Position numbers and translations under genes: made by a program. The notes under the pieces were generated by a model. It searched no databases and was not told where the DNA came from. It saw only the letters and a list, made by a program, of their open reading frames with translations. Of a DNA stretch of 50,435 bases, positions 6,993 to 36,647 are shown one piece after another; the first letter of the stretch is position 1; every line of letters starts with the position of its first letter. Source of the DNA: Terriglobia bacterium (GTDB lineage: Bacteria; Acidobacteriota; Terriglobia; Bryobacterales; Bryobacteraceae); contig JAIQFI010000046.1 in NCBI GenBank assembly GCA_020073345.1, forward strand, positions 1-50,435, read 5' to 3'.

Positions 6993-8114
6993 CTAGATTA
7001 CCATTGCTCCGCGGCGCTGCGCGCGCAGAAATGTGGGGAACTCCCCAACCAGTATAGCCTGCCTGATCTGACCCATGATGTCAAGGTACCGGCGCAGGTT
7101 ATGCAGCGTGGCGAGCGTGGAGAACGTCATCTCCCCCGCCAGGAACAGATGGCGAAGATAGGCCCGCGAAAAATTAGCGCAAGTGTAACAGGAACAGGAT
7201 TCGTCCACAGGGCTGGGGTCTTCTTTATACTGCGCTTGCTTGATGACCACCCGTCCCTGGGATGTAAACAAGTACCCGTTACGGGCGTTCCGGGAGGGCA
7301 GTACGCAATCCATCATGTCGACGCCCCGCGCGACGTATTCCGGCAATTCGTCGGGCATTCCCACTCCCATGACGTAGCGCGGACGATCTTGCGGCAGCAG
7401 CGGTGTGGTGATTTCGGTCATCTCCAGGCTCAAAGCGCGGGGCTCGCCGACCGATAATCCGCCGATCGCGTAGCCTTCCGCGTCCAGTGGCAGAAGCTCC
7501 TCGGCGCAGTGACGCCGCAGATCGGCAAACATGGAGCCTTGGACGATGGGGAAGAGCGCGTGTTCGCCATCGGCGGACCTTCGGTAATGATCGTAGCCCG
7601 CGCGGGCCCAGCGCAGCGTCCTTTCGGTGGAAACTCGCGCGGCTTCGTGGCTGGCCGGATACGCCAGGCACTCATCGAGCACCATCATGATGTCGCTGCC
7701 CAAGGCGAGCTGGACGTCGATGGTCGATTCGGGCGTGAAGAAATGCTGATCGCCGTTCAGGTGCGAGCGGAACAGCACGCCTTCTTCGGTAACCTTGCGC
7801 AGGGTATCTAAACTAAAAACCTGGAATCCGCCTGAGTCGGTAAGGATCGCCCGGGGCCAGTTCATGAACTTGTGCAAGCCGCCGAGCTTTCGGATCGTCT
7901 CGTGTCCGGGCCGGAGAAACAGGTGATAGGTGTTGCCCAGAATGATCTTGGCGTCCAGATCGTTCAGTAGATCGCGCGCCAGGATGCCTTTAACGGTCCC
8001 CTGGGTGCCGACCGGCATGAACACCGGTGTCTCGACGTCGCCGTGAGCGGTGTGCAGGATACCGGCGCGAGCCCCGGTTTCGGGGCAGACTGCCTGAAGC
8101 TCGAATCGGAACAC
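6993..8114 (-). CDS. tgt: Queuine tRNA-ribosyltransferase (tRNA-guanine transglycosylase)
   Basis: The 373-residue enzyme swaps guanine 34 of GUN-anticodon tRNAs for a queuosine precursor. Motifs include 'LTDSGGFQVFSL' (substrate pocket), 'GVDMMDCVLPSRNARNG' with the nucleophilic Asp, and the zinc site 'CSCYTCANFSRAYLRHL'. Length is typical. The start is GTG at 8114, with TACAAT exactly 6 nt upstream and no Shine-Dalgarno, so transcription may begin on the start codon. It leads the yajC-secDF series and diverges from cysS across 74 nt. Confidence 0.96.
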   Translation of the reverse strand: MFRFELQAVCPETGARAGILHTAHGDVETPVFMPVGTQGTVKGILARDLLNDLDAKIILGNTYHLFLRPGHETIRKLGGLHKFMNWPRAILTDSGGFQVFSLDTLRKVTEEGVLFRSHLNGDQHFFTPESTIDVQLALGSDIMMVLDECLAYPASHEAARVSTERTLRWARAGYDHYRRSADGEHALFPIVQGSMFADLRRHCAEELLPLDAEGYAIGGLSVGEPRALSLEMTEITTPLLPQDRPRYVMGVGMPDELPEYVARGVDMMDCVLPSRNARNGYLFTSQGRVVIKQAQYKEDPSPVDESCSCYTCANFSRAYLRHLFLAGEMTFSTLATLHNLRRYLDIMGQIRQAILVGEFPTFLRAQRRGAMVI

Positions 8115-8120
8115 TTCTAG

Positions 8121-8126
8121 ATTGTA
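8121..8126 (-). promoter_or_regulatory. -10 element of tgt, leaderless spacing
   Basis: TACAAT on the minus strand (complement of 8121-8126) is followed by six bases and then the GTG start of tgt. This spacing puts the expected transcription start on the start codon. A good -35 box is not obvious. Confidence 0.5.
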
Positions 8127-8188
8127 GTAGGGCGGGCCTCCAGGCCGGCCAAAATAGGGCCTTGGTAGGATAGTAGGACATCTCGCTC

Positions 8189-9589
8189 ATGTCCTTGCGG
8201 TTCTACAACACCCTGACCCAGCAGCTGGAGGAGTTCACTCCGCTGCACGACAACGTTGTGCGGATGTACACCTGCGGGCCGACCGTCTACAACTACGCCC
8301 ACATCGGCAACTTCCGCTCCTTCGTGTTTCCGGACATCCTGCGCCGCTGGCTGCGCGTGCGCGGCTACCAGCTCGATCACGTCATGAACATCACCGACAT
8401 CGAGGACAAAATCATCCGCGATTCGAAGGCCGCGGGCAAGACCCTGGCTGAATTCACCGCGGTCTACACCAAGGCATTCCTAGAAGACACCGCGACACTG
8501 CGATTGGAGCGCCCCGAACGCATTGTCCCGGCTACCCAACACATCCCGGAAATGGTGGAGGCCGTACAGCAACTCACCGAGCGCGGGCATACCTATGTCA
8601 GCGACGGCTCCGTCTATTACCGCATCTCGACGTTTCCCGAATACGGCAAGCTCTCGCACAACGACTTCAGCGGCATCCGGGCCGGGGCTCGTGTCGACGT
8701 GGATGAATACGACAAAGACGACGCCCGCGACTTTGTTCTATGGAAAGCCGCCAAGGAAGGAGAGCCTGCCTGGGACACGCCCATCGGCAAAGGCCGCCCC
8801 GGATGGCACATCGAATGTTCCGCCATGGCGATGAAGTATCTGGGCGATACCCTGGATATCCACACCGGCGGTGTCGATCTCACCTTCCCACATCATGAAA
8901 ATGAAATCGCCCAGGCCGAAGGGATTACGGGGAAGCCGTTCGTCCGCTTCTGGCTGCACGCCGAGCACTTGAGCGTCGATTCGCAGAAGATGTCCAAGTC
9001 GCTCGGGAACATCTATACTCTGCGGGATCTGAAGGAGCGCGGATTCGCGCCTGAGGCTTTGCGCTACCTGCTGGCGTCCGTGCCGTATCGGAAGAAGCTC
9101 AATTTCACCTTCGATGGGCTGAAGGCCGCCGCGACGTCGATCGACCGGCTGCGAAATTACAGGCTGCGCCTGGAGACGGACAAATTTGCCGCGGGGACGA
9201 ACGCGGCGCTGGCCGAGCGTACGCGGGCCGCGTCTTCGGCGTTCGACACAGCGCTGGATGACGACCTGAACACCGCCGAAGCGCTGGGCACGGTATTCGA
9301 ATACGTCCGTGACACCAACACCGCCATGGACGCCGGCGAATTTCCGGCCGGGAACGTTCCGGCCGCACTCGAATTCCTGGACCGGTTCGACTCCATCTTC
9401 GATGTGCTGAAACCGACCCCTCGAACGGACGGACTGACGGATGCGGAAGTGGACGCGTTGATCGCCGAACGCACGGCCGCCAAGAAGTCGCGCAATTTCG
9501 GGCGTTCCGATGAGATTCGAACCCAGCTCGCCTCCCAGGGCGTCATCCTCGAAGACACCAAGGAAGGAGTACGCTGGAAACGGTCATGA
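8189..9589 (+). CDS. cysS: Cysteinyl-tRNA synthetase
   Basis: The 466-residue class I synthetase charges tRNA-Cys. It has the HIGH-type motif in 'CGPTVYNYAHIGNFRSF', the zinc ligands in 'YTCGP', 'WHIECSAMAM' and 'FPHHENEIAQ', and 'SQKMSKSLGN' (KMSKS). Length matches bacterial CysRS. It diverges from tgt. TAGGAT at 8166-8171 after TTGG is a possible -10, giving a leader of about 10 nt. The stop overlaps the start of the next gene by 4 nt (ATGA), so the two are translationally coupled, linking cysteine charging and sulfur amino-acid metabolism. Confidence 0.97.
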   Translation: MSLRFYNTLTQQLEEFTPLHDNVVRMYTCGPTVYNYAHIGNFRSFVFPDILRRWLRVRGYQLDHVMNITDIEDKIIRDSKAAGKTLAEFTAVYTKAFLEDTATLRLERPERIVPATQHIPEMVEAVQQLTERGHTYVSDGSVYYRISTFPEYGKLSHNDFSGIRAGARVDVDEYDKDDARDFVLWKAAKEGEPAWDTPIGKGRPGWHIECSAMAMKYLGDTLDIHTGGVDLTFPHHENEIAQAEGITGKPFVRFWLHAEHLSVDSQKMSKSLGNIYTLRDLKERGFAPEALRYLLASVPYRKKLNFTFDGLKAAATSIDRLRNYRLRLETDKFAAGTNAALAERTRAASSAFDTALDDDLNTAEALGTVFEYVRDTNTAMDAGEFPAGNVPAALEFLDRFDSIFDVLKPTPRTDGLTDAEVDALIAERTAAKKSRNFGRSDEIRTQLASQGVILEDTKEGVRWKRS

Positions 9590-10767
9590 AAATCGAAAGC
9601 AAGACCGTTCACTGGGGCGACCGCCGCAAGGCCGGCGACTTCACCCCGGTCGCGACTCCGATCTACACGGCGGCCAGCTATGTCTACGAATCGATGGACC
9701 AGCTCGATCGGGTGTTCGGGCTGGAGGAACAGGGCCCTTCCTACGCCCGCTACGATAATCCCACCCGCTCCGCGCTCGAAGAGCTTGTCCGCGAACTTGA
9801 AAGCGGCGCGGGCGCGATCGCCTGTGCTTCAGGGATGGCCGGCATCCACATGGCAGTGCTCGCAGCTTTGATGGACCGCCCCAAACGCGTGGTCGCCGCG
9901 AACATGATGTATGGCGCGACAACTTCCATGCTGATGAACGTGTTCGGCCCTCTGGGAGTGGAGACCGCGCACGTCGATCCCTGCGATCTGACTGCCTTCG
10001 AAGCGGCCCTCACCGAGGAGAAAACCGGTGCCGTGGTGGTGGAAACCATCGCCAATCCGCTGCTACGCGTGCCCGCCCTGGACAAGATCGCCGCCCTGTG
10101 CCGCAAAGCGGACGTCCCACTCATCGTGGACAATACTTTCGCCACGCCGCTGCTGGTCAGACCGCTGGAGCTCGGCGCGAGTGTGGTCTGCCATAGCGCC
10201 ACCAAATATCTGGCGGGTCACGGAGACGTGCTGGGCGGTGTGATCGTGGCCGATAAGGCGAACTTTGACGCGCTGCGGACGCTTTCCCGCACCATCGGCC
10301 CCGTGATGGGCCCTTTCGAAAGTTATCTGACCATGCGGGGGATCAAGACACTGGCTCTTCGCGTGGAGCGCCAGTGCGCCAACGCCTGTAAAGTCGCGTC
10401 CTGGCTGGCGGCGCACCCGCGCGTCGAACGAATATTTTTCCCGGGCGATCCCATGCATCCGGATGCCGATTCCATCGCGCGCCTGTTCCCGCCGAATCGC
10501 TTCGGTGGCCTGGTGTCCTTCGAACTGAAGGGGGCTGGGCGCGCGGAAGTGTTCCGATTCATGGAGAAGCTGAAAATGGTGGTGCGCGCGACGTCGCTCG
10601 GCGATGTACACACGCTCGTCATTTATCCGGCCATGGCGTCGCATCGCGATCTTTCGCCCAAGCATCGCGAGCGCCTGGGGATTCGCGACAATCTGATGCG
10701 CCTGTCGATCGGCATCGAAGCCGTGGAGGATATTGTCGCCGACCTGGAGCAGGCCCTCTCCGCCTGA
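9586..10767 (+). CDS. Cys/Met metabolism PLP enzyme (cystathionine gamma-synthase/lyase or O-acyl-homoserine sulfhydrylase type)
   Basis: This 393-residue protein belongs to the trans-sulfuration PLP family. Visible are 'YARYDNPTRSALEELV' (phosphate contacts from the neighbouring subunit), 'ACASGMAGIHMAV', 'VVVETIANPLLRVPAL', 'IVDNTFATPLL' with the PLP-ring Asp, and 'CHSATKYLAGHGDVLGG' with the Schiff-base Lys. The family includes cystathionine gamma-synthase, gamma-lyase, methionine gamma-lyase and O-acetylhomoserine sulfhydrylase; sequence alone does not settle which. It overlaps cysS by 4 nt. The his operon promoter begins only about 10 nt after its stop. Confidence 0.9.
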   Translation: MKIESKTVHWGDRRKAGDFTPVATPIYTAASYVYESMDQLDRVFGLEEQGPSYARYDNPTRSALEELVRELESGAGAIACASGMAGIHMAVLAALMDRPKRVVAANMMYGATTSMLMNVFGPLGVETAHVDPCDLTAFEAALTEEKTGAVVVETIANPLLRVPALDKIAALCRKADVPLIVDNTFATPLLVRPLELGASVVCHSATKYLAGHGDVLGGVIVADKANFDALRTLSRTIGPVMGPFESYLTMRGIKTLALRVERQCANACKVASWLAAHPRVERIFFPGDPMHPDADSIARLFPPNRFGGLVSFELKGAGRAEVFRFMEKLKMVVRATSLGDVHTLVIYPAMASHRDLSPKHRERLGIRDNLMRLSIGIEAVEDIVADLEQALSA

Positions 10768-10773
10768 AAAATC

Positions 10774-10782
10774 TGGTATACT
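10774..10782 (+). promoter_or_regulatory. Extended -10 promoter of the his operon
   Basis: TGGTATACT carries an extended -10 (TG at 10774-10775, one base, TATACT at 10777-10782). No convincing -35 box is seen, as is usual for extended -10 promoters. Expected transcription start is about 10789, only about 3 nt before the leader peptide ATG. Confidence 0.6.
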
Positions 10783-10791
10783 GTGATTTCT

Positions 10792-10872
10792 ATGTTCGTC
10801 GCCCGCCATCATCGGCACCATTGTCACCACACCCATGGTGGACACATTGATGTGCGGCGGGCTCACGCGTAA
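10792..10872 (+). CDS. hisL: His operon leader peptide
   Basis: A 26-codon frame starts MFVARHHRHHCHHTH and has nine His residues at positions 6, 7, 9, 10, 12, 13, 15, 18 and 25. It lies between the his promoter and a transcription terminator, the position and composition of attenuation leader peptides. Ribosomes starved of charged tRNA-His should stall from codon 6 (10807) on. There is no Shine-Dalgarno, and the ATG is only 9 nt after the -10 hexamer, so the mRNA is probably nearly leaderless. The call rests on composition, position and the competing stems described in the attenuator entry. Confidence 0.88.
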   Translation: MFVARHHRHHCHHTHGGHIDVRRAHA

Positions 10873-10928
10873 CCAAAGTAACTCGGAAGTGAATTCAAAA
10901 TGAGCCCGCCGGAAACGGTGGGCTTTTT
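10801..10928 (+). promoter_or_regulatory. Ribosome-mediated his attenuator (competing RNA stems)
   Basis: Four segments can be read. Segment 1 GCCCGCC (10801-10807, at the first His codon) pairs with GGCGGGC (10856-10862) of segment 2. Segment 2 CGGCGGGCTCA (10855-10865) pairs perfectly over 11 bp with segment 3 TGAGCCCGCCG (10901-10911), the antiterminator. Segment 3 also pairs with segment 4 to form the terminator. A ribosome stalled at the first His codons hides segment 1 and frees 2:3 (read-through). A ribosome at the stop codon covers segment 2 and allows 3:4 (termination). Confidence 0.85.
10903..10928 (+). terminator. Intrinsic terminator of the his attenuator
   Basis: AGCCCGCCG (10903-10911), loop GAAA (10912-10915), CGGTGGGCT (10916-10924), followed by TTTT. 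The stem has 9 pairs with one G-T, and the T run overlaps the stem end at 10924-10928. It lies 17 nt before the hisI ATG and after the leader peptide stop. Confidence 0.9.
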
Positions 10929-10944
10929 CGTTATAGGAACAACT

Positions 10945-11319
10945 ATGGAACTGGATTTCAGCAAACTCGACGGCCTGGTGGCCGCGGTGATTCAAGATTG
11001 GAAAACGGGGCGCGTCCTGATGGTCGGCTTCATGAATGAGGAAAGCTTCCGCAAGACCGTCGAGACCGGCAACGTGGTTTTCTATAGCCGCTCGCGCAAC
11101 AAGCTATGGCTCAAGGGCGAATCTTCCGGCCACAAGCTGGTGGTCAAGGAAATCTCGACCGATTGCGATCGCGACGCGGTGCTTCTCAAAGTGGAAGCCC
11201 TTGGCCCAGGCGTCTGCCACGAAGGTTATGAAAGCTGCTTCTTCCGGCGGCTCGATGGCAAAGAGTGGAAGATCACCGATACTCAAGCGTACGACCCTAA
11301 GGCCGTTTACGGAAACTAA
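10945..11319 (+). CDS. hisI: Phosphoribosyl-AMP cyclohydrolase
   Basis: The 124-residue enzyme opens the adenine ring of phosphoribosyl-AMP in histidine synthesis. Motifs: 'VLMVGFMNEESFRKTVETGNVVFYSRSRNKLWLKGESSGH', 'STDCDRDAVLLKVEALGPGVCHEGYESCFFR' with the zinc/magnesium-binding Asp and Cys residues. I chose ATG 10945 over the in-frame ATG at 10900 because the latter lies inside the terminator stem region and AGGA sits 6 nt before 10945. It has no HisE (pyrophosphohydrolase) domain, and no hisE gene occurs in the window. The hisG ATG directly follows its stop. Confidence 0.95.
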   Translation: MELDFSKLDGLVAAVIQDWKTGRVLMVGFMNEESFRKTVETGNVVFYSRSRNKLWLKGESSGHKLVVKEISTDCDRDAVLLKVEALGPGVCHEGYESCFFRRLDGKEWKITDTQAYDPKAVYGN

Positions 11320-12189
11320 ATGAAACTGAAACTCGGCATTCCCAAAGGCAGTCTCGAAAACGCGACCGTCGATCTCTTCCGGCGCGCAGGATTCCAGATC
11401 ACGGTGAGCAGCCGCTCCTATTTCCCCGCCATCGACGATCCCGAGATCGAGTGCATGCTGATTCGCGCGCAGGAAATGGCTCGCTACGTGGAAGACGGAG
11501 TGCTCGACGCCGGCCTCACCGGCCGCGACTGGGTCCAGGAAAATGACGCGCAGGTCGAGACCGTCGCCGATCTGATCTACGCCAAGCAGAGCTTCGGCAA
11601 AGTGCGCTGGGTGCTGGCTGTGCCCGAATCCTCACCCGTGCAGTCGGTCAAGGATCTCGAAGGCAAAATCATCGCGACCGAACTGGTGGCGGCTACCGAG
11701 CGGTATTTGAAAACACACGGCGTCACCGCCAAGGTCGAATTCAGCTGGGGAGCGACCGAGGTGAAACCTCCCGAGCTCGCGGACGCGATCGTCGAAGTCA
11801 CCGAAACCGGCTCTTCCTTGCGCGCCAACAAGCTGCGCATAGTCGAGACGGTGATGGAATCGAATACCCAGCTCATCGCCAACGTGAATTCCTGGAAGGA
11901 TTCGTGGAAACGGCGCAAGCTGGAGGACATGCGCATGCTGCTCCAAGGCGCGATCAACGCGCTGGGCAAGGTCGGGCTGATGCTGAATGTGGAGAAGAAG
12001 AACCTGGAGAGCGTTCTGGGCGTGCTCCCGGCGCTGAAGAAGCCGACCATCTCGCCCCTGAGCGAGGGCGACTGGCTGGCGTTGAACACGATTCTGGACG
12101 AAACCACGGTACGCACTATCATTCCTCGCTTGAAAGAAGCCGGCGCGCAGGGCATCGTCGAGTATCCGCTGAACAAGATCGTAATGTAG
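11320..12189 (+). CDS. hisG: ATP phosphoribosyltransferase, long form
   Basis: HisG catalyses the committed step of histidine synthesis (ATP + PRPP). The 289-residue product begins '[25 protein letters not shown]' and has the PRPP-loop '[19 protein letters not shown]' near residue 165. The C-terminal part, about residues 215-289, is the extra ACT-like domain of the long form, ending in '[19 protein letters not shown]'. Long HisG binds histidine directly and does not need HisZ, which fits the lack of hisZ here. It is thus regulated by feedback as well as by the upstream attenuator. Confidence 0.96.
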
Positions 12190-12201
12190 CGATTCGCAAA
12201 C

Positions 12202-13425
12202 ATGATTCGGATCATCAACTATCGGGAAGCGCAGCCTCTCATCGCGCGAAAAACGCAGCGGCTGGAAGACGCTGAGCGCATCGTCGCGCCTATCCTTGAA
12301 GACGTCCGCCGCGAGGGCGACGCCGCGCTGCTCGCATACGCCCGCAAATTCGACGATTTCGAAGGCGCCAGCGTCCGCATCCCGGTACATGGATCGCTCG
12401 AGCCGGAATTCGGGCGCGCCGTGCGCATCGCCGACGCCAATATCCGCGAGTACGCGCGGCTGCAACTCCCAGTGGAGAAGCTGGTGGAATATCCGGACGG
12501 CCGCAAGCTGGGCCAGATCGTACGGCCGCTCGATTCCATGGGCGCCTACACACCCGCTGGCCGCTATCCCCTGCCCTCCACGCTGATGATGAACGTTATT
12601 CCCGCGCAGGTGGCCGGCGTTAAGACTACCTGCGTCGCCTGCCCTCACCCCAGCGCAGAGATCCTGGGAATCGCCGCATGGCTCGGCGTGACACATTTTT
12701 TCCAGATGGGCGGCGCGCACGCCATCGCCGCGCTGGCTTTCGGAACAGCTACTGTCCCGCGTGTGGATCGCATCGTAGGTCCGGGAAATATTTACGTCGC
12801 AGCGGCGAAAAAGCTGATCGCGGGGGAAACCGGGATCGACTTCGTCGCCGGGCCGACCGAGATTGTGATCATCGCCGCGGAAGGTAACCCCGAGTGGATC
12901 GCTGCCGACATGCTGGCGCAAGCGGAGCACGATGTGGATGCCTCGGCCATTCTGCTCACGACCTCGCGTAAGCTCGCAGACTCCGTGGCCGAGGCTCTGG
13001 AGCGCCAGCTCATTTCCCTGCCGACCGCCGCCGTCGCGCGTCCCTCGATCGACAGTAACGGCGCGATTGTGATCCTTGACTCTCTTGAAAGTGCAGTCGA
13101 GTTTTCAAACACACTCGCGCCGGAGCACCTCGCGCTGCACGATCCTACGCTCCTCGGCTCCATCCAGAATGCAGGCTCCGTGTTCCTTGGTCCGACTAGC
13201 CCGGAAGCCGCGGGAGATTACGCGTCCGGCCCCAATCACGTCTTGCCGACATCCGGACAGGCCCGTCTGCGCGGCGGATTGTCCGCGGCGGACTTCGTCA
13301 AGGTGATCTCAGTACAGGAGCTGAGTCCTGCAGCTCTGAGATCTTTGGCTCCAGCGGTGACCACACTGGCTCGCGCCGAAGGCTTGGAAGCACACGCGCG
13401 ATCCGTTGAGGTTCGTCATGGCTGA
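12202..13425 (+). CDS. hisD: Histidinol dehydrogenase
   Basis: This 407-residue zinc enzyme carries out the last two oxidations, histidinol to histidine. Motifs: 'VDRIVGPGNIYVAAAKKL', 'FVAGPTEIVIIAAEGNPEWIAADMLAQAEHD' with the zinc-ligand Gln/His, 'EAAGDYASGPNHVLPTSGQAR', and the C-terminal 'EGLEAHARSVEVR' with another ligand His. The catalytic residues all appear present. Length is slightly short of the usual 420-435. It starts 12 nt after hisG and overlaps hisC by 8 nt. Confidence 0.96.
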   Translation: MIRIINYREAQPLIARKTQRLEDAERIVAPILEDVRREGDAALLAYARKFDDFEGASVRIPVHGSLEPEFGRAVRIADANIREYARLQLPVEKLVEYPDGRKLGQIVRPLDSMGAYTPAGRYPLPSTLMMNVIPAQVAGVKTTCVACPHPSAEILGIAAWLGVTHFFQMGGAHAIAALAFGTATVPRVDRIVGPGNIYVAAAKKLIAGETGIDFVAGPTEIVIIAAEGNPEWIAADMLAQAEHDVDASAILLTTSRKLADSVAEALERQLISLPTAAVARPSIDSNGAIVILDSLESAVEFSNTLAPEHLALHDPTLLGSIQNAGSVFLGPTSPEAAGDYASGPNHVLPTSGQARLRGGLSAADFVKVISVQELSPAALRSLAPAVTTLARAEGLEAHARSVEVRHG

Positions 13426-14476
13426 CGCCCTTACACCGCGCGAGGCGATCCGTACGATGGCTCCATATTCCCCGCCCTCGAGCGGGCGCGCCGGAAAGCT
13501 GCGCCTGGATTTTAACGAGAACACCGTCGGCTGCTCGCCCAAAGTGATCGAGTGCGTTCAGAAGTATCTGACTGCGGACCACCTGACCATCTATCCCGAA
13601 TACCAGGACGCCCGGCGCGACCTCGGCGCATTCTTCGGCGTCTCGCCCGATGAGTTCACCATCACCAACGGCACCGACGAGGCGATCCAGCTCTTGGTCA
13701 ACACCTTTGTCGACGACGGCGACGACGTGCTGCTGCTCAAGCCTTCCTATGCGATGTACCGGTTCTACGCGGAAGTGGCTGGCGCGTCGGTGCGCGAAGT
13801 CGATTACGCGGGCGATCTCAGTTTTCCGGTCGCCGATTTTCTGGACGAACTGCGCCCGGAAACCCGCGCGATCCTGATCGCCAATCCCAACAACCCCACT
13901 GGGTCCGCGATCGGGCTCGACCAGATCGAATTGATCCTTGAGACGGCTCCCGACGCGGCCGTGCTGATCGACGAAGCGTATTTCGAATTCTACGGCGTCA
14001 CAGCGCTGCGCTGGATCAACCAGTACAAGAACCTGTTCGTCAGCCGGACGTTTTCGAAAACCTACGGCATGGCCGCCATGCGCTGCGGCTGCCTGTTCAG
14101 CTGCGCGGAGAATATCGCGTGGATTCGAAAGGCCCAGTCGCCCTACAGCGTGAATATGCTCGCGGTGATCGCGGCACGTGCGGCTGTGCAGGATCGCGAA
14201 TACATCGCCAAGTATGTCGGCGAAGCGCTCGCTGCCCGTGAAATGGCTTACGTCGGCTTCGAACGGCTGGGCATCAAGTACTTCCCAAGCCAAGCCAATT
14301 TCGTGCTGTTCCAAGCCGGCGACCGCGCGATCCCCATTCGCGACGCACTTCGCGAGCGCGGCGTTCTGGTGCGCGACCGCAGTTATGAAATCCCAGGCTG
14401 CGTGCGGGTCACCATCGGCACTCGTGCTCAGGTGGAGCGTTTCTTTACCGAACTGGAGACGCTGTGGAAGGGCTAG
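13418..14476 (+). CDS. hisC: Histidinol-phosphate aminotransferase
   Basis: A 352-residue fold type I PLP aminotransferase. Signatures: 'LDFNENTVGCSPKVIE', 'TNGTDEAIQLLVNTF', 'LIANPNNPTGSAIG', 'LIDEAYFEFYG' and 'SRTFSKTYGMAAMRCG' with the PLP Lys, and the C-terminal 'PGCVRVTIGT' with the carboxylate-binding Arg. ATG 13418 is preceded by GAGG and overlaps hisD by 8 nt; an in-frame TTG at 13406 is less likely. It makes histidinol phosphate, the substrate for the phosphatase probably encoded next. Confidence 0.95.
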   Translation: MADALTPREAIRTMAPYSPPSSGRAGKLRLDFNENTVGCSPKVIECVQKYLTADHLTIYPEYQDARRDLGAFFGVSPDEFTITNGTDEAIQLLVNTFVDDGDDVLLLKPSYAMYRFYAEVAGASVREVDYAGDLSFPVADFLDELRPETRAILIANPNNPTGSAIGLDQIELILETAPDAAVLIDEAYFEFYGVTALRWINQYKNLFVSRTFSKTYGMAAMRCGCLFSCAENIAWIRKAQSPYSVNMLAVIAARAAVQDREYIAKYVGEALAAREMAYVGFERLGIKYFPSQANFVLFQAGDRAIPIRDALRERGVLVRDRSYEIPGCVRVTIGTRAQVERFFTELETLWKG

Positions 14477-15135
14477 TTGTTTTCGACATGGACGGGGTGC
14501 TGGCGGAGGTGACCGAATCCTACCGCGAGGCGATTGTTCAGACCGTCGAGCACTTCACCGGCAAGCGTATCGAGCGCGATTTGATCCAGGATTACAAGAA
14601 CCAAGGCGGCTGGAACAATGACTGGGCACTATCGCAGAAAATCGCCGCGGATCTGGGCACAGAAGTCCCCTACGACACCGTTGTCGACTATTTCAATGAG
14701 ATATTCATCGGCAAGAACGGAAGCGGTCTCATCCAGCGCGAACGGTGGTTCCCGAAACCCGGATTGCTGGAACGCCTGCGCCAACGGTTCGGCCTGGCGA
14801 TCTTCACCGGCCGCCTGCAATACGAGGCGGAGATCACGCTCAAGCGGTTCGCGCCGGATTTCTCGTTCGATCCGCTGTTGTGCGCGGAACACGTCACGAA
14901 ATCCAAGCCTGCGCCGGAGGGCCTGCTGGCGATCCAGCGCATGAAACCCGGGCGGAAGCTCTGGTACATCGGCGATACCGTCGATGATGCCCGCTCTGCG
15001 CGCGCGGCTGGCGTGCCGTTCATCGGGATCGCCGCCCGCAACCACTCCCGGCGGGATGAAATTCTCCGCTTGTTTCAAGAAGAGCAAGCCGTGGCCGTTC
15101 TTGAAAACGTCAACGAGATTGAGGGTGCGCTATGA
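14464..15135 (+). CDS. HAD-family phosphatase in the his operon, candidate histidinol-phosphatase
   Basis: The 223-residue protein is a subfamily I HAD phosphatase: 'VVFDMDGVL' (Asp8 nucleophile, Asp10), a helical cap (about 15-85), '[19 protein letters not shown]' (motif II), '[10 protein letters not shown]' (motif III Lys) and '[18 protein letters not shown]' (motif IV). GTG 14464 lies inside hisC (13-nt overlap) and its end overlaps hisB by 4 nt, so it is tightly coupled to his genes. The HisB here lacks the phosphatase domain and no PHP-type HisK or HisN is present, so dephosphorylation of histidinol phosphate is a reasonable inference. A related HAD group was, as I recall, noted beside HisB functions in cyanobacteria and archaea. 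Confidence 0.85.
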
Positions 15136-15719
15136 GGAAAGCCACGATACAGCGCGACACCAAAGAAACGCAAATCCGCGGCAGCCTCACGATTGAAGGG
15201 CGAGGCGCATACCAGATCTCGACTGGCATCCGATTCTTCGACCATATGCTGGAGCTGTTCACCAAGCACGGCGGATTCGACTTAAAGTTGGTCGCCAAAG
15301 GCGACCTCGACGTGGACCAGCACCACACTGTAGAGGACGTCGGTATCGTAGTGGGCCAGTTGTTTGCCAAGGCCCTGGGCGATCGCCGCGGAATCAACCG
15401 GGCCGGCTATTTCGTGCTGCCCATGGATGAAACCCTGGCCGTGGTCGCAGTCGATCTGGGTGGACGCCCGGCGCTCGTTTACAAAGACCTGGTGAAAACG
15501 CGATTGGTCGGCGATTTACAGACCGAGCTGGTCGAGGATTTCTTCGGAGGCTTCGTCAGCCATGCGGGCGCGAATCTGCACGCCAAGGTGCTTTATGGCC
15601 GGTCGAATCACCACAAGATCGAGGCGATCTTCAAGTGTTTCGCGCGGGCAATGCGCTACGCGTGCTCGAAAGACGCACGCCTCAAGAAACAATTGCCTTC
15701 AACAAAGGGTCTCTTGTGA
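15132..15719 (+). CDS. hisB: Imidazoleglycerol-phosphate dehydratase, single-domain
   Basis: The 195-residue manganese enzyme dehydrates imidazoleglycerol phosphate. Metal-binding motifs are plain: '[12 protein letters not shown]', '[13 protein letters not shown]', and '[32 protein letters not shown]'. It is the monofunctional form without the N-terminal HAD phosphatase of enterobacterial HisB. The ATG overlaps the preceding HAD gene by 4 nt, and its TGA overlaps the GTG of hisH by 3 nt (GTGA). Confidence 0.97.
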
Positions 15720-16303
15720 TCTCGGTATTCGACTACGGCGCGGGCAACCTTCGCTCCGTGCAGAACACACTGGGCGCGATCCGAGCCGAGTACGAACTCA
15801 TTCGTGACGCCGCAGGCATCCGACGCGCGGAGAAACTGATTCTCCCCGGCGTCGGCCACTTCGGCCAGATGATGCGCGCGCTCGATGATCTTCAGGTTCG
15901 CGACGCCCTGGTCGAACGCATTCGCGCGGGCGTCCCCTTTCTCGGCATCTGTCTGGGATTGCAGGCGCTGTTCGAGACCAGCGAAGAGGCTCCGTCGGAG
16001 CGCGGCCTGGGAATATACCCCGGCGAAGTGAAACTCTTTCGCGGAGACCTTCGTATCCCGCACATGGGCTGGAATCAGGTGCAACCCTGCCGGCCGAACA
16101 CTCTGCTCGCGTCCGCGGCTTACTTGTATTTCGCGCACAGTTATTACTGCCCCGTGATTCCGGAAACCGCCGCCGTGTGCGATTACATCGTGCCCTATAC
16201 AGCAATCCTCGAGCAGTCCAACGTCCGGGGCGTGCAGTTTCACCCCGAGAAATCGGGACCCTCGGGGCTCCAGATTGTGAAGAATTTCGTGGATGCTCGC
16301 TAA
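15716..16303 (+). CDS. hisH: Imidazole glycerol phosphate synthase, glutaminase subunit
   Basis: A 195-residue class I glutamine amidotransferase that supplies ammonia to HisF. It begins '[19 protein letters not shown]' and has '[19 protein letters not shown]' with the catalytic Cys, and '[12 protein letters not shown]' with the His/Glu of the triad. The start is GTG 15716 inside the hisB stop; an upstream in-frame ATG at 15635 would add 27 residues that belong to the hisB coding region and lack homology. It overlaps hisF by 11 nt, as expected for subunits made in equal amounts. Confidence 0.96.
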
Positions 16304-17048
16304 ACGCATCATCCCCTGCCTGGACGTCACCGCCGGCCGTGTGGTCAAAGGCGTCAACTTCGTCAACCTCCGCGACGCCGGCGATCCCGTAGAACTTGCC
16401 GCGCGCTACAACGAGCAGGGTGCCGACGAGCTGGTGTTCCTCGATATCACCGCGTCGAGCGATAACCGCGACACCATGATCGACGTGGTCGCGCGGACCG
16501 CCCGGGAAGTCTTTATCCCACTCACCGTGGGCGGTGGCATCCGCAGCGTCGACGACGCTCGCGGCATCCTGCACGCTGGCGCGGATAAAGTGAGCGTCAA
16601 CACCGCGGCGGTGCGCCGGCCGCAGCTCATCACCGAGCTGAGCGAGGAATTCGGGGCGCAAGCGGTGGTTCTCGCGATCGACGCGCGCCGCAGACCTGGC
16701 GGCTGGAACGTTTTCACGAAGGGTGGCCGCCACGACGAAGGCATCGACGCGGTGGATTGGGCTTGCCGGGGCGAGGAACTGGGAGCGGGCGAGATCCTGC
16801 TCACCTCCATGGACACCGACGGCGTCCAGACCGGCTTCGACTGCCCTCTGACTCTGGCCGTCCACAAAGCCACGCATATTCCAGTGATCGCTTCAGGCGG
16901 CGCCGGGAAGCCAGAAGATTTTCTCGAAGTGTTGACTGGCGCGTGCGCCGATGCCGCTCTGGCAGCCTCCATCTTCCACTACGGCACCTACACCGTCGGC
17001 GATCTCAAACAATTCCTGGCGGCGCACAACGTCCCCATAAGAAGATGA
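16293..17048 (+). CDS. hisF: Imidazole glycerol phosphate synthase, cyclase subunit
   Basis: A 251-residue TIM barrel that closes the imidazole ring. '[20 protein letters not shown]' has catalytic Asp11 and '[11 protein letters not shown]' has Asp130, both at the positions known for HisF. Phosphate-binding loops '[12 protein letters not shown]' and '[13 protein letters not shown]' are present. Length is normal. The gene overlaps hisH by 11 nt and hisA by 4 nt (ATGA). Confidence 0.97.
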
Positions 17049-17725
17049 TCATCCCCTGCATCGACCTCATGGACGGTAAGGTCGTCCAGCTCGTTCAAGG
17101 CCGTGAAAAAGCGCTCGAAGGCGACGCGCCGCTCGAGATGCTGCGAAAGTTCGCCGCGTTCCCCGAAATCCAGGTGATCGATCTGGATGCCGCGATGGGC
17201 AAGGGCGAGAATGCTTCGCTCGTCGAGCTCCTGGCCGCGCGAGCCCGCTGCCGCGTGGGGGGCGGAGTCCGAACGCCCGATCGCGCCCGCCGATTGATCG
17301 AGCAAGGCGCGCACCGCGTGATCGTCGGCACAGCGGCATTCACTCCAGCCTTCGAACAAATCGCGGCAGCAGTCGGTGCCGAGCGCCTGATCGTCGCGCT
17401 GGATTCCAAAGGCGGCAAGATCGTTGTCAAGGGCTGGCAGGAGGCGACGAACTTCGCTGCGGAAGAAGTGATCGGCCGGCTGGAACCGTTTTGCAGCGGG
17501 TTCCTGTGCACCTATGTCGATAAGGAAGGCATGATGCAGGGCACGGACCTCGACTGGTTCCGCCGTCTGCGCGCGGCCACGAAGCACGAGATCACCGCTG
17601 CCGGGGGCATTACGACGCTCGACGATATACGCGCGCTCGCCGCGCTCAACATCCACTCGGCGCTCGGCATGGCGATCTATACCGGCCGCCTGGATCTAGG
17701 CGAGCTTGCTCGAATGCAAGAGTAA
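17045..17725 (+). CDS. hisA: ProFAR isomerase, slightly short
   Basis: The 226-residue TIM barrel isomerises ProFAR to PRFAR. Catalytic Asp7 ('[14 protein letters not shown]') and Asp120 ('[17 protein letters not shown]') are visible, as are phosphate loops '[11 protein letters not shown]' and '[12 protein letters not shown]'. It is about 15 residues shorter than most bacterial HisA. ATG 17045 overlaps the hisF stop. The last 30 nt overlap the end of the convergent gph-like gene, so the operon's transcript must run into that gene or terminate inside it. Confidence 0.94.
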
Positions 17726-34472: not shown

Positions 34473-36647
34473 TTACCGAGACCCCACGCCGAGGCGAGCC
34501 CGGCCGAGAGTCTTGACGACGTTTTCCATCAGCCGCAGGCCGCAATCGCCCTCCAGCGTCAGGATCGATTCAGGATGAAACTGCACGGCTTCCATGGGCA
34601 ATTCGCGGTGGCGGACGCCCATGATCACGCCGTCTTCGCTCTCAGCGGTGACTTCCAGGCACCCTGGCAGCCGATCGCGGATGGCGAATAAGGAATGGTA
34701 CCTTCCCACTCGAAATGTTTGGGGCAGGCCTTCGAAAACTCCCACGTCGCGATGGGTTACGGTGGACGGCTTGCCGTGCTTAGGGTAATCCAGCACCCCC
34801 AGTTCGCCGCCGAACGCCTCCACCATGCCCTGCAAACCCAGGCACACGCCGAATACCGGGATTTCGAGCTTGGCGGCGTACCGAACCAGCGTGGGCACCC
34901 CGAAATCCTCGGGGCGGCCCGGACCGGGCGAAACCAGGATCAACGAAGGCGCCAGCTTCTCGATCATCTCCAGCGGGAAGCCCGCGCGATAGGTGATGAC
35001 TTCGGCGCCGGTCTGGCGGGCATAATTCGCCAAGGTGTGGATAAAGCAATCTTCGTTGTCAACTAGCAGCAGCCGAATGCCGCCTGCCTTGTCCGTCTCA
35101 GGAATGTATTCGGTCTTTTCGGGAGGTTTAGAGTCGAGAGCCCGGAAGAAACCGGTAGCCTTCATGTGGCACTCCCGATCTTCCTGCTCGGGGATGGAAT
35201 CGTACAGCAGCGTCGCGCCCACGGGATACGCCGCCACGCCATCACGCAGATGAACCGTGCGAATGGTGATGCCAGTGTTGATGCCGCCGTCGAGCGAGAT
35301 CATTCCCACGGCGCCGCCATACCAGCCCCGGGCGTCCTTTTCCAGATCCTCCACGGCCTGCGCCGCCCACTTCTTAGGCGCTCCGATCACCGTGACGGCC
35401 CACATGTGCGTCAGGAACGCGTCGAGCGAATCGAAGCCGTCAGCCAGCATTCCTTCCACGTGATCCACAGTGTGAAATACACCGGCGTAGCGTTCGATGA
35501 GACGGCGCGCGATCACGCGCACCGTTCCAGGCTTGCAGACGCGCGACTTATCGTTGCGGTCCACGTCGGTGCACATGGTCAGCTCGGATTCTTCCTTGGC
35601 CGACGACAACAGTTCGCGGATGTTATCGGCGTCCCGCAATGGATCTCCCGTGCGCCGCGCCGTTCCCGAGATGGGGCAGGTCTCTACACGGCGGCCGTCC
35701 TCGCGTTGTTCCACGCGCACGAACATCTCGATCGAAGCGCCGATCAACTGTTCGTCGCCGAACTGGAGGAAAAACTCATACGGACTGGGACTGGCTTTCT
35801 GAATTCGCTCGAACAAGTCCGCCGCTCCGCCGGCGTACGGCGCGCGAAAGGTCTGCCGCAACACGACTTCATAGTAGTTGCCGAGGCGCATGCCTTCGCG
35901 GACCGTTTCAACGTTGGCGGCGTACTCGGCGGGGGTGTGATCGCTGACGATCGGGCCCGGGGCCGCCTTCTTTTTCGCCTTCTTGACGCGCTGGGCAGCG
36001 TGCGGAAGCCCGCGCGTCGTGTCCTCGCCGCGCGTGAAATCGAAGCGGTAACGCTCGATCTGTTCCTTCTTGCGATCCATGAAGTAGATGTCATCGCACA
36101 GGAACAGGTGCAGATCCTTGACGTCCGAGCGCGGATGCCTGGTGCGGATCGGGTCGAAGCGGAACAAAAGATCGTATCCGAACGCGCCCACCAAGGCGAG
36201 CCGCGAGGCCAGAGGATCGTCAAACTCCGCCAGCACCGCGCGCAGCAGCGAGAAGGCCGAAGGCTGCTTGCTACGTTCCTCTTCCGGGAACAGCTTGGGC
36301 AGCGGCTTGAGCTTGCCGTGGATGATGCCGTTCAGCATCTCAAAGGATTCCCAGTGAGGATGCGGGCGCAGAACCGGCTCCAGCAACCGGTTGATGACCT
36401 CGCCTCGCCCATTCAGCGGGCGCAAGGTGATGTCGCGGTCGGCGGCGATGATCTCAAGCGGCGGCGCGACAGAGGCTATGTCCCAACGCGAGTATCGCTC
36501 GGGATATTCATAACCGGAAGAAAGATAGATGCCGCGTTGGGTATCGAGCTTGTGCAGCAGCCCGCGCAGGCCCTTTTCAAACGCGATCTTGGAAAAGGTG
36601 CGTTCGACAACGATGCCGCTAGGTGTGGAATAGCTGTCGGGGCGCAT
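34473..36647 (-). CDS. trpEG: Anthranilate synthase, fused TrpE-TrpG
   Basis: The 724-residue protein joins a TrpE domain (about 1-500) and a glutamine amidotransferase (about 520-715). TrpE motifs include 'PSPYEFFLQFGDEQLIGASIEMFV', 'CPISGTARRTGDP', 'TMCTDVDRNDKSRVCKPGTV' and 'YGGAVGMISLDGGINTGITIRTV'. The second domain has 'PVFGVCLGLQGMVEAFGGELG' (nucleophile Cys), 'VGRYHSLFA' and 'EAVQFHPESILT'. It makes anthranilate for tryptophan. A fused form is known from Rhizobium and Azospirillum. I prefer ATG 36647; the in-frame TTG at 36740 lies upstream of the -10 element. No other trp gene is in the window. Confidence 0.93.
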   Translation of the reverse strand: MRPDSYSTPSGIVVERTFSKIAFEKGLRGLLHKLDTQRGIYLSSGYEYPERYSRWDIASVAPPLEIIAADRDITLRPLNGRGEVINRLLEPVLRPHPHWESFEMLNGIIHGKLKPLPKLFPEEERSKQPSAFSLLRAVLAEFDDPLASRLALVGAFGYDLLFRFDPIRTRHPRSDVKDLHLFLCDDIYFMDRKKEQIERYRFDFTRGEDTTRGLPHAAQRVKKAKKKAAPGPIVSDHTPAEYAANVETVREGMRLGNYYEVVLRQTFRAPYAGGAADLFERIQKASPSPYEFFLQFGDEQLIGASIEMFVRVEQREDGRRVETCPISGTARRTGDPLRDADNIRELLSSAKEESELTMCTDVDRNDKSRVCKPGTVRVIARRLIERYAGVFHTVDHVEGMLADGFDSLDAFLTHMWAVTVIGAPKKWAAQAVEDLEKDARGWYGGAVGMISLDGGINTGITIRTVHLRDGVAAYPVGATLLYDSIPEQEDRECHMKATGFFRALDSKPPEKTEYIPETDKAGGIRLLLVDNEDCFIHTLANYARQTGAEVITYRAGFPLEMIEKLAPSLILVSPGPGRPEDFGVPTLVRYAAKLEIPVFGVCLGLQGMVEAFGGELGVLDYPKHGKPSTVTHRDVGVFEGLPQTFRVGRYHSLFAIRDRLPGCLEVTAESEDGVIMGVRHRELPMEAVQFHPESILTLEGDCGLRLMENVVKTLGRARLGVGSR

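Follow-up and report, generated by a model that had tools for sequence, protein, structure and literature searches.

Organisation of the his locus

The window, by which we mean the whole stretch of 50,435 nucleotides of a Terriglobia bacterium analysed here, contains a his operon on its forward strand, preceded by a short histidine-rich open reading frame and an intrinsic terminator. This leader ORF encodes the peptide MFVARHHRHHCHHTHGGHIDVRRAHA (ATG at 10792-10794, stop codon TAA at 10870-10872), begins 24 nt after the end of a gene for a PLP-enzyme in the ORF list, and is separated from the hisI start at 10945 by 72 nt which hold the terminator. The putative attenuator stretch occurs once in its own genome. 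The features are as follows:

10774-10782, + strand: extended -10 box TGgTATACT, read from the sequence, 9 nt 5' of the leader ATG with no Shine-Dalgarno sequence between
10789-10792, + strand: region of predicted transcription initiation, at the leader ATG or as much as 3 nt ahead of it, placed by the usual -10 to +1 spacing
10792-10872, + strand: ORF of the his leader peptide, with 9 His among its 26 codons and no Shine-Dalgarno sequence
10801-10807, + strand: segment 1, GCCCGCC, pairs with GGCGGGC at 10856-10862 (7 bp); apparently not conserved
10855-10865, + strand: segment 2, 5' arm of the antiterminator, CGGCGGGCTCA; its 3' end lies 7 nt short of the last base of the stop codon
10901-10911, + strand: segment 3, TGAGCCCGCCG, arm common to antiterminator (11 bp with segment 2) and terminator (with segment 4)
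10916-10925, + strand: segment 4, 3' arm of the terminator, after the GAAA loop
10924-10928, + strand: T run of the intrinsic terminator (sequence and terminator scan)
10935-10938, + strand: Shine-Dalgarno-like AGGA of hisI, read from the sequence
10945-11319, + strand: hisI, first structural gene (NCBIfam NF000768, 153 bits against a cut-off of 126)
11320-17725, + strand: rest of the his operon, hisG, hisD, hisC, HAD hydrolase, hisB, hisH, hisF and hisA (NCBIfam matches and ORFs)

The genes from hisI to hisA abut or overlap and are probably transcribed jointly. The matches of hisA and of the HAD hydrolase fall below their own NCBIfam cut-offs. The HAD hydrolase, located at 14464-15135 between hisC and hisB, has TIGR01548 as best NCBIfam match (126 bits against a cut-off of 140), and is a candidate histidinol-phosphate phosphatase. 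The sequence-only reading had described a 26-codon leader with nine His codons, stems 1:2, 2:3 and 3:4, a T run and an extended -10 box, and all of these are present where it placed them, directly 5' of hisI and the his operon. The terminator with its GAAA loop and T run was likewise correctly located, but its stem, given there as 9 bp, has 10 pairs by the terminator scan (10902-10911 with 10916-10925). Between 10600 and 11000 there are two terminator-like sites, this one and a weak 5-pair site on the other strand, versus 0.3 expected by chance. None of 200 dinucleotide shuffles matched the 2:3 duplex of the window, while 9 of 200 matched the 1:2 duplex, and 4 of 200 folded as low as the whole leader (z = -2.0).

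Distribution of the histidine-rich leader in the Acidobacteriota

HisI was found in 57 of 61 genomes, and 58 upstream regions of relatives were compared, with a leader defined as an ORF of at least 3 His codons whose startcodon lies 5-12 nt past a -10-like hexamer. Such a leader precedes hisI in 42 of the 58 regions: in 19/19 from the same genus, 12/14 from other members of the same family, 8/20 from elsewhere in the same order (one of these eight with a TTG startcodon), and 3/4 from elsewhere in the same class, and was absent from the second hisI copy of genome G052 (0/1). The leader ORF was also present in 77 of 80 named loci, these being the 80 best HisI relatives in named genomes, labelled almost exclusively as Bryobacteraceae, Bryobacterales, Solibacter, Terriglobia, Acidobacteriia or Acidobacteria, which places the window in the Acidobacteriota, a phylum common in soil, as the sequence-only reading had guessed. 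One of the named loci (L092) carries the label 'Bordetella parapertussis' and looks mislabelled, and for another, labelled 'Chthoniobacterales' (L134), the script gave no leader preceded by a -10 box. Pooling gave 138 regions, 120 of them distinct, of which 103 have a leader.

We also searched for HisI across the phylum, with matches in 178 of 297 genomes, and took from outside the order the best 80 of the 175 genomes that matched beyond the genus, a sample in which closer relatives are over-represented. A leader with at least 4 His codons was found in 51 of these 80 regions, compared with 1/80 on the opposite strand, and 48 of the 51 have a -10-like hexamer; the remaining 29 regions have no leader 5' of hisI. 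Within this sample the leader precedes hisI in families f8 (28/28), f30 (9/9), f52 (6/6), f21 and f50 (2/2 each) and f39, f64, f68 and f81 (1/1 each), and is absent there from f27 (0/9), f67 (0/5), f59 (0/3), f10 and f26 (0/2 each) and eight further families represented by one genome. Its position is not confined to hisI: the leader precedes hisD in family f10, and hisG in G257 and family f23. A covariance model (R1) reached an E-value of 0.01 or better in 124 of the 297 genomes of the phylum, many of them weak or restricted to the terminator end, so that this figure does not count as a distribution. The PLP-enzyme gene upstream of the leader in the window is present in only 9 of 100 upstream regions compared, and the element thus tracks his rather than the preceding gene.

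In 154 leaders, frame 0 holds 961 His codons, frame 1 holds 44 and frame 2 holds 81, an excess of frame 0 that comes partly from choosing His-rich ORFs. Both CAT (544) and CAC (417) are used, and the sixth codon is the commonest place for the first His. Changes in the few pairs of leaders of equal length that were compared are both synonymous and nonsynonymous, and therefore conservation of the entire peptide is not tight. Its C-terminus varies among families (RRAHA, AVSG, GPAGVCA) where segment 2 lies.

Several loci deviate from this layout. In L344 and L348 of family f10 the leader ATG follows a Shine-Dalgarno sequence, AAGGAG, at a distance of 6 nt, and both loci have a longer 5' UTR and a TTGACA promoter; the position upstream of hisD was tested in L344, and in L348 the Shine-Dalgarno sequence lies within a small hairpin (GGCTCC-TTGAA-GGAGCC). 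Three loci from one genus of family f23 (L341, L342 and L343, in G090, G128 and G103) contain two tandem His-rich leader ORFs before hisG, each followed by a hairpin and T run (the first hairpin was identified by eye), possibly tandem attenuators. Their second ORFs are alike over 47 codons, and the 2:3 pairing clearly beats shuffles in one of the three (ranks 23, 4 and 18 of 200). Upstream of hisI in L026 (G023) the -10 box and terminator are kept and the leader ORF is absent, which would predict constitutive termination and may represent either a natural deletion or an assembly fault. In L034 (G047), also 5' of hisI, promoter and terminator are kept, and by eye an ACG occupies the expected position of the leader startcodon, so that the leader would be either degenerate or have a non-ATG start. 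In genus g17 of the same order (L037, L040, L044 and L049) the promoter-like string CTTGATATTCTGAGATTCTGG recurs before hisI, where neither a His leader nor, by script, a terminator was found, an apparent loss of the attenuator in this lineage.

A crude scan of relatives for leaderless leaders of other amino acid operons (TAnnnT 7-10 nt before ATG or GTG, and at least 2 Trp or 5 Ile/Leu/Val codons) gave no convincing candidate near trpE (29 loci), or near leuA and ilvB (30 loci each), and the trpE gene of the window (35136-36227, minus strand) has no leaderless leader of the type scanned.

Promoter spacing and the predicted leaderless start

The leader startcodon lies 8-9 nt past a TAnnnT hexamer in 89 of the 103 distinct leaders versus 2 of 464 other ATGs in the same regions, a count that is partly conditioned, as leaders of relatives and named loci were accepted only with a -10 box 5-12 nt before the start. 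The TG extension is present in 85/103 and TATACT in 61/103, and the purine that comes first at a distance of 6 nt or more from the -10 box is the first base of the startcodon in 75, lies before it in 27 and after it in one. A loosely Shine-Dalgarno-like string between -10 box and start occurs in 17 of the 103 leaders. Missing Shine-Dalgarno sequences are common here, since hisI itself is preceded by an SD-like string in only 37 of 103 homologues.

A simple promoter scan, which demands a -35 box, detected no promoter at the leader of the window, and only 7 of the 103 distinct leaders of its relatives have a -35 box with 5-6 of 6 matches to TTGACA, whereas outside the order this is the case for 40 of the 48 leaders with a -10 box (25 with 6 matches, 15 with 5). 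In random stretches of the relatives' upstream DNA, 6 matches were found in 0% and 5 matches in 1.1%. The -10 box of these leaders outside the order is again 8-10 nt from the startcodon (47/48). The promoter has thus changed type, with a TTGACA -35 box outside the order and an extended -10 box in the relatives of the window, while its distance to the startcodon has stayed the same. The earlier suggestion of a near-leaderless start gains from a spacing that stays constant between families whose promoters differ in type. Promoters have a usual distance between -10 box and +1, and from the fixed spacing, together with the -35 boxes at the matching place outside the order, transcription is predicted to begin at or within a few nucleotides of the leader startcodon.

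PMC3160421 recognises leaderless genes by a -10 box about 10-12 bp before the startcodon in the absence of a Shine-Dalgarno sequence, the pattern seen at the window leader and its homologues. It takes TA-like signals as a mark of leaderless genes, and reports them in 3 of 3 acidobacterial genomes, with an average of 13.3%.

Conservation of the alternative pairings

The terminator pairing 3:4 is strongly supported by the alignment, where 95% of cells are paired, 6 of 10 pairs show two-sided changes, and none of 500 shuffles reached its covariation. An intrinsic terminator was found by script in 47 of the 51 leaders outside the order; the other four (L200, L224, L240 and L246) were omitted from the pairing and folding counts. 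Support for the antiterminator pairing 2:3 is moderate: 71% of cells are paired compared with 32-40% when slid, and 3 of 500 shuffles reached this number of paired cells and 4 of 500 its covariation score, but its two-sided changes do not stand out (60, 32 and 25 of 500 shuffles) and are no commoner than in slid versions. With regard to duplex energy, 2:3 ranked among the first 10 of 200 shuffles in 22 of 42 relatives and 33 of 47 leaders outside the order, where about two would be expected in each set, with the qualification that homologues are not independent. For two of the 42 relatives (L017 and L043) the terminator was set by hand in these duplex shuffles, as the script took a wrong or partial one.

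Stem 1:2 shows no covariation among the 42 relatives, and was above shuffles in 10 of these and in 3 of the 47 leaders outside the order. We therefore treat it as a local feature, apparently not a conserved part of the putative attenuator. The proposal that the segments are arranged as the enterobacterial model requires would thus hold for 2:3 and 3:4 only. The outcome that the sequence-only reading had named as evidence against itself, relatives lacking the His codons or the 2:3 and 3:4 pairings, did not come about, with 3:4 clearly kept and 2:3 present in many, not all homologues.

Folding models of ribosome positions

Equilibrium folding of 40 leaders with the complete terminator, with L017 and L043 left out for the wrong or partial terminator picked by the script, showed the terminator winning at every codon in 33 of 40, and the antiterminator would therefore have to act kinetically. 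Only 7 of the 40 leaders, that of the window among them, had any codon at which the antiterminator exceeded 0.5, and as a test this approach was non-discriminating, so that transcripts ending before segment 4 were folded instead.

In this sequestration model, applied to the 42 relatives (three from other orders) and the 47 leaders outside the order, segment 3 is sequestered upstream with a median probability of 0.76 and 0.73, respectively, for a ribosome on the first His codon. The medians are 0.19 and 0.11 for a ribosome on the stop codon, and 0.69 and 0.63 without ribosome. For all 89 leaders the values are 0.74 at the first His codon and 0.13 at the stop codon, compared with 0.59 and 0.35 for shuffled sequences, and the difference between stall and stop is 0.60 versus 0.19 for shuffled spacers. 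The leader of the window gave 1.00 at the first His codon, 0.59 at the stop codon and 0.98 without ribosome, which suggests that the release of its segment 3 at the stop codon is weak in this model, while its full-length fold gives the terminator at 0.97 with the ribosome at the stop codon and 0.92 without ribosome. Pairing 2:3 is mutually exclusive with the terminator, and a ribosome on the stop codon would cover its 5' arm; release of segment 3 there is clear in the medians. The E. coli his leader gave 0.57 (stall), 0.56 (stop) and 0.32 (no ribosome) in the same model, a single sequence; stall and stop are not separated there, and we regard the model as crude and as no proof.

Comparison with known leaders

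The layout of the E. coli his leader is in part general background, with the rest taken from genome annotation. The acidobacterial element has in common with E. coli hisL (Rfam RF00514, His_leader) a run of His codons in a short ORF, a terminator, an alternative antiterminator and a his operon downstream. It differs in that E. coli hisL, in the one genome inspected, has no TAnnnT 5-12 nt before its ATG, a distance fixed here at 8-9 nt, and in that stem 1:2 is apparently not conserved in the acidobacterial leaders. The Rfam His_leader model had no match in 8000-14000 of the window at E-values up to 5. A T-box or riboswitch was rejected, as no Rfam family reached its gathering threshold in the window stretch or in 19 homologous loci, the best relevant match being Trp_leader with 21.5 bits against 41.

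Leaderless attenuator peptides have precedents elsewhere. In the passages on trpL of Sinorhizobium meliloti (PMC7298713), the 5' end of the attenuator RNA is the AUG of the leader ORF, so that a leaderless leader peptide serves transcription attenuation, although for Trp and in the Alphaproteobacteria. The passages on leuL, trpL and ilvL of Streptomyces lividans (PMC8079986) describe leaderless transcription, most leaders having attenuator hairpins, and the eight leaders named there, from Actinobacteria, include none for his. The parts of PMC9413887 and PMC2965389 on Firmicutes describe attenuators with a His peptide, likewise outside the Proteobacteria, but in another phylum and partly with other genes (hisS, hisZ), and the word 'leaderless' is absent from the main texts of both. 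The mechanism is classical, and a leaderless attenuator peptide is not new by itself, since the passages cited from PMC7298713 and PMC8079986 report such leaders for trp, leu and ilv. In searches of the open-access literature we found no acidobacterial his attenuator, and as far as our literature searches reach, the new aspects are the his case, the phylum and the fixed geometry of promoter and start.

Interpretation and alternative explanations

By its testable features the element would belong with the ribosome-mediated attenuators of amino acid operons. The comparison supports the His ORF, the spacing from promoter to start and both pairings, with 2:3 less uniformly supported than 3:4, and the best reading is that a his attenuator with a leaderless leader recurs in the Acidobacteriota. 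For the window itself we consider a ribosome-mediated transcription attenuator of the his operon, with its leader peptide translated from a leaderless mRNA, to be the probable explanation (probability of about 0.85), and not higher because of the value of 0.59 with the ribosome at its own stop codon. In the scheme that we infer with regard to transcription start, translation (by 70S ribosomes or otherwise) and histidine response, RNA polymerase would initiate on the leader AUG or no more than about 3 nt away from it, and 5'-end loading of the ribosome would therefore be required. If His-tRNA is plentiful, the ribosome would reach the stop codon and cover segment 2, upon which segment 3 would pair with segment 4 and transcription would end before hisI. 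When His-tRNA is short, the ribosome would stall within the CAU/CAC run, leaving segment 2 free to pair with segment 3, and RNA polymerase would read into hisIGDC-HAD-BHFA.

An ordinary leadered his attenuator, starting further upstream and with ribosome entry by a weak Shine-Dalgarno sequence or by read-through from the PLP-enzyme gene, would fit the 24 nt between that gene and the leader ATG, the loosely SD-like strings in 17 of 103 leaders and the SD-led leaders of L344 and L348. We consider it unlikely, as the startcodon is 8-9 nt from TAnnnT in 89/103, -35 boxes lie at the matching place outside the order, and the PLP-enzyme gene accompanies only 9 of 100 regions. On this last count a terminator of the upstream gene was rejected, and we give scarcely any credence to the wider idea that the hairpin merely terminates that close-by gene, with the His ORF incidental or encoding a small metal-binding peptide. 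While a His-rich peptide could bind metal, the His ORF, the 2:3 pairing and the closeness to hisI persist where other genes lie upstream, and elsewhere the leader precedes hisG or hisD. An additional role in trans for the released leader RNA or peptide, of the kind that PMC7298713 describes for rnTrpL and peTrpL of S. meliloti, is very unlikely but would be compatible with attenuation in cis, and the layout here, a short leaderless mRNA ending at a terminator, would be the same. Nothing in the present results points to such a role, and apart from the His run, peptide and segment 2 vary together among families.

Implications for histidine regulation

On the leaderless his attenuator as preferred here, a doubtful extension is that the Acidobacteriota evolved a form that builds on leaderless initiation and can do without the protector stem, so that an untranslated leader would default to read-through rather than superattenuation. 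This is suggested by the ribosome-free sequestration medians (0.69 and 0.63), which are near the stalled state, compared with 0.32 for E. coli his, a single sequence in a crude model; against it, the ribosome-free equilibrium with the full terminator favours termination. If true, the operon would sense charged His-tRNA as well as the capacity of the cell for initiation at 5' ends.

A his attenuator is hereby proposed for nine families outside the order in addition to that of the window. These may constitute a natural series, with a change of promoter type but a startcodon that stays at the predicted 5' end, and with an SD-led leader in another family, and the contribution of leaderless initiation to the timing of attenuation would therefore be directly testable.
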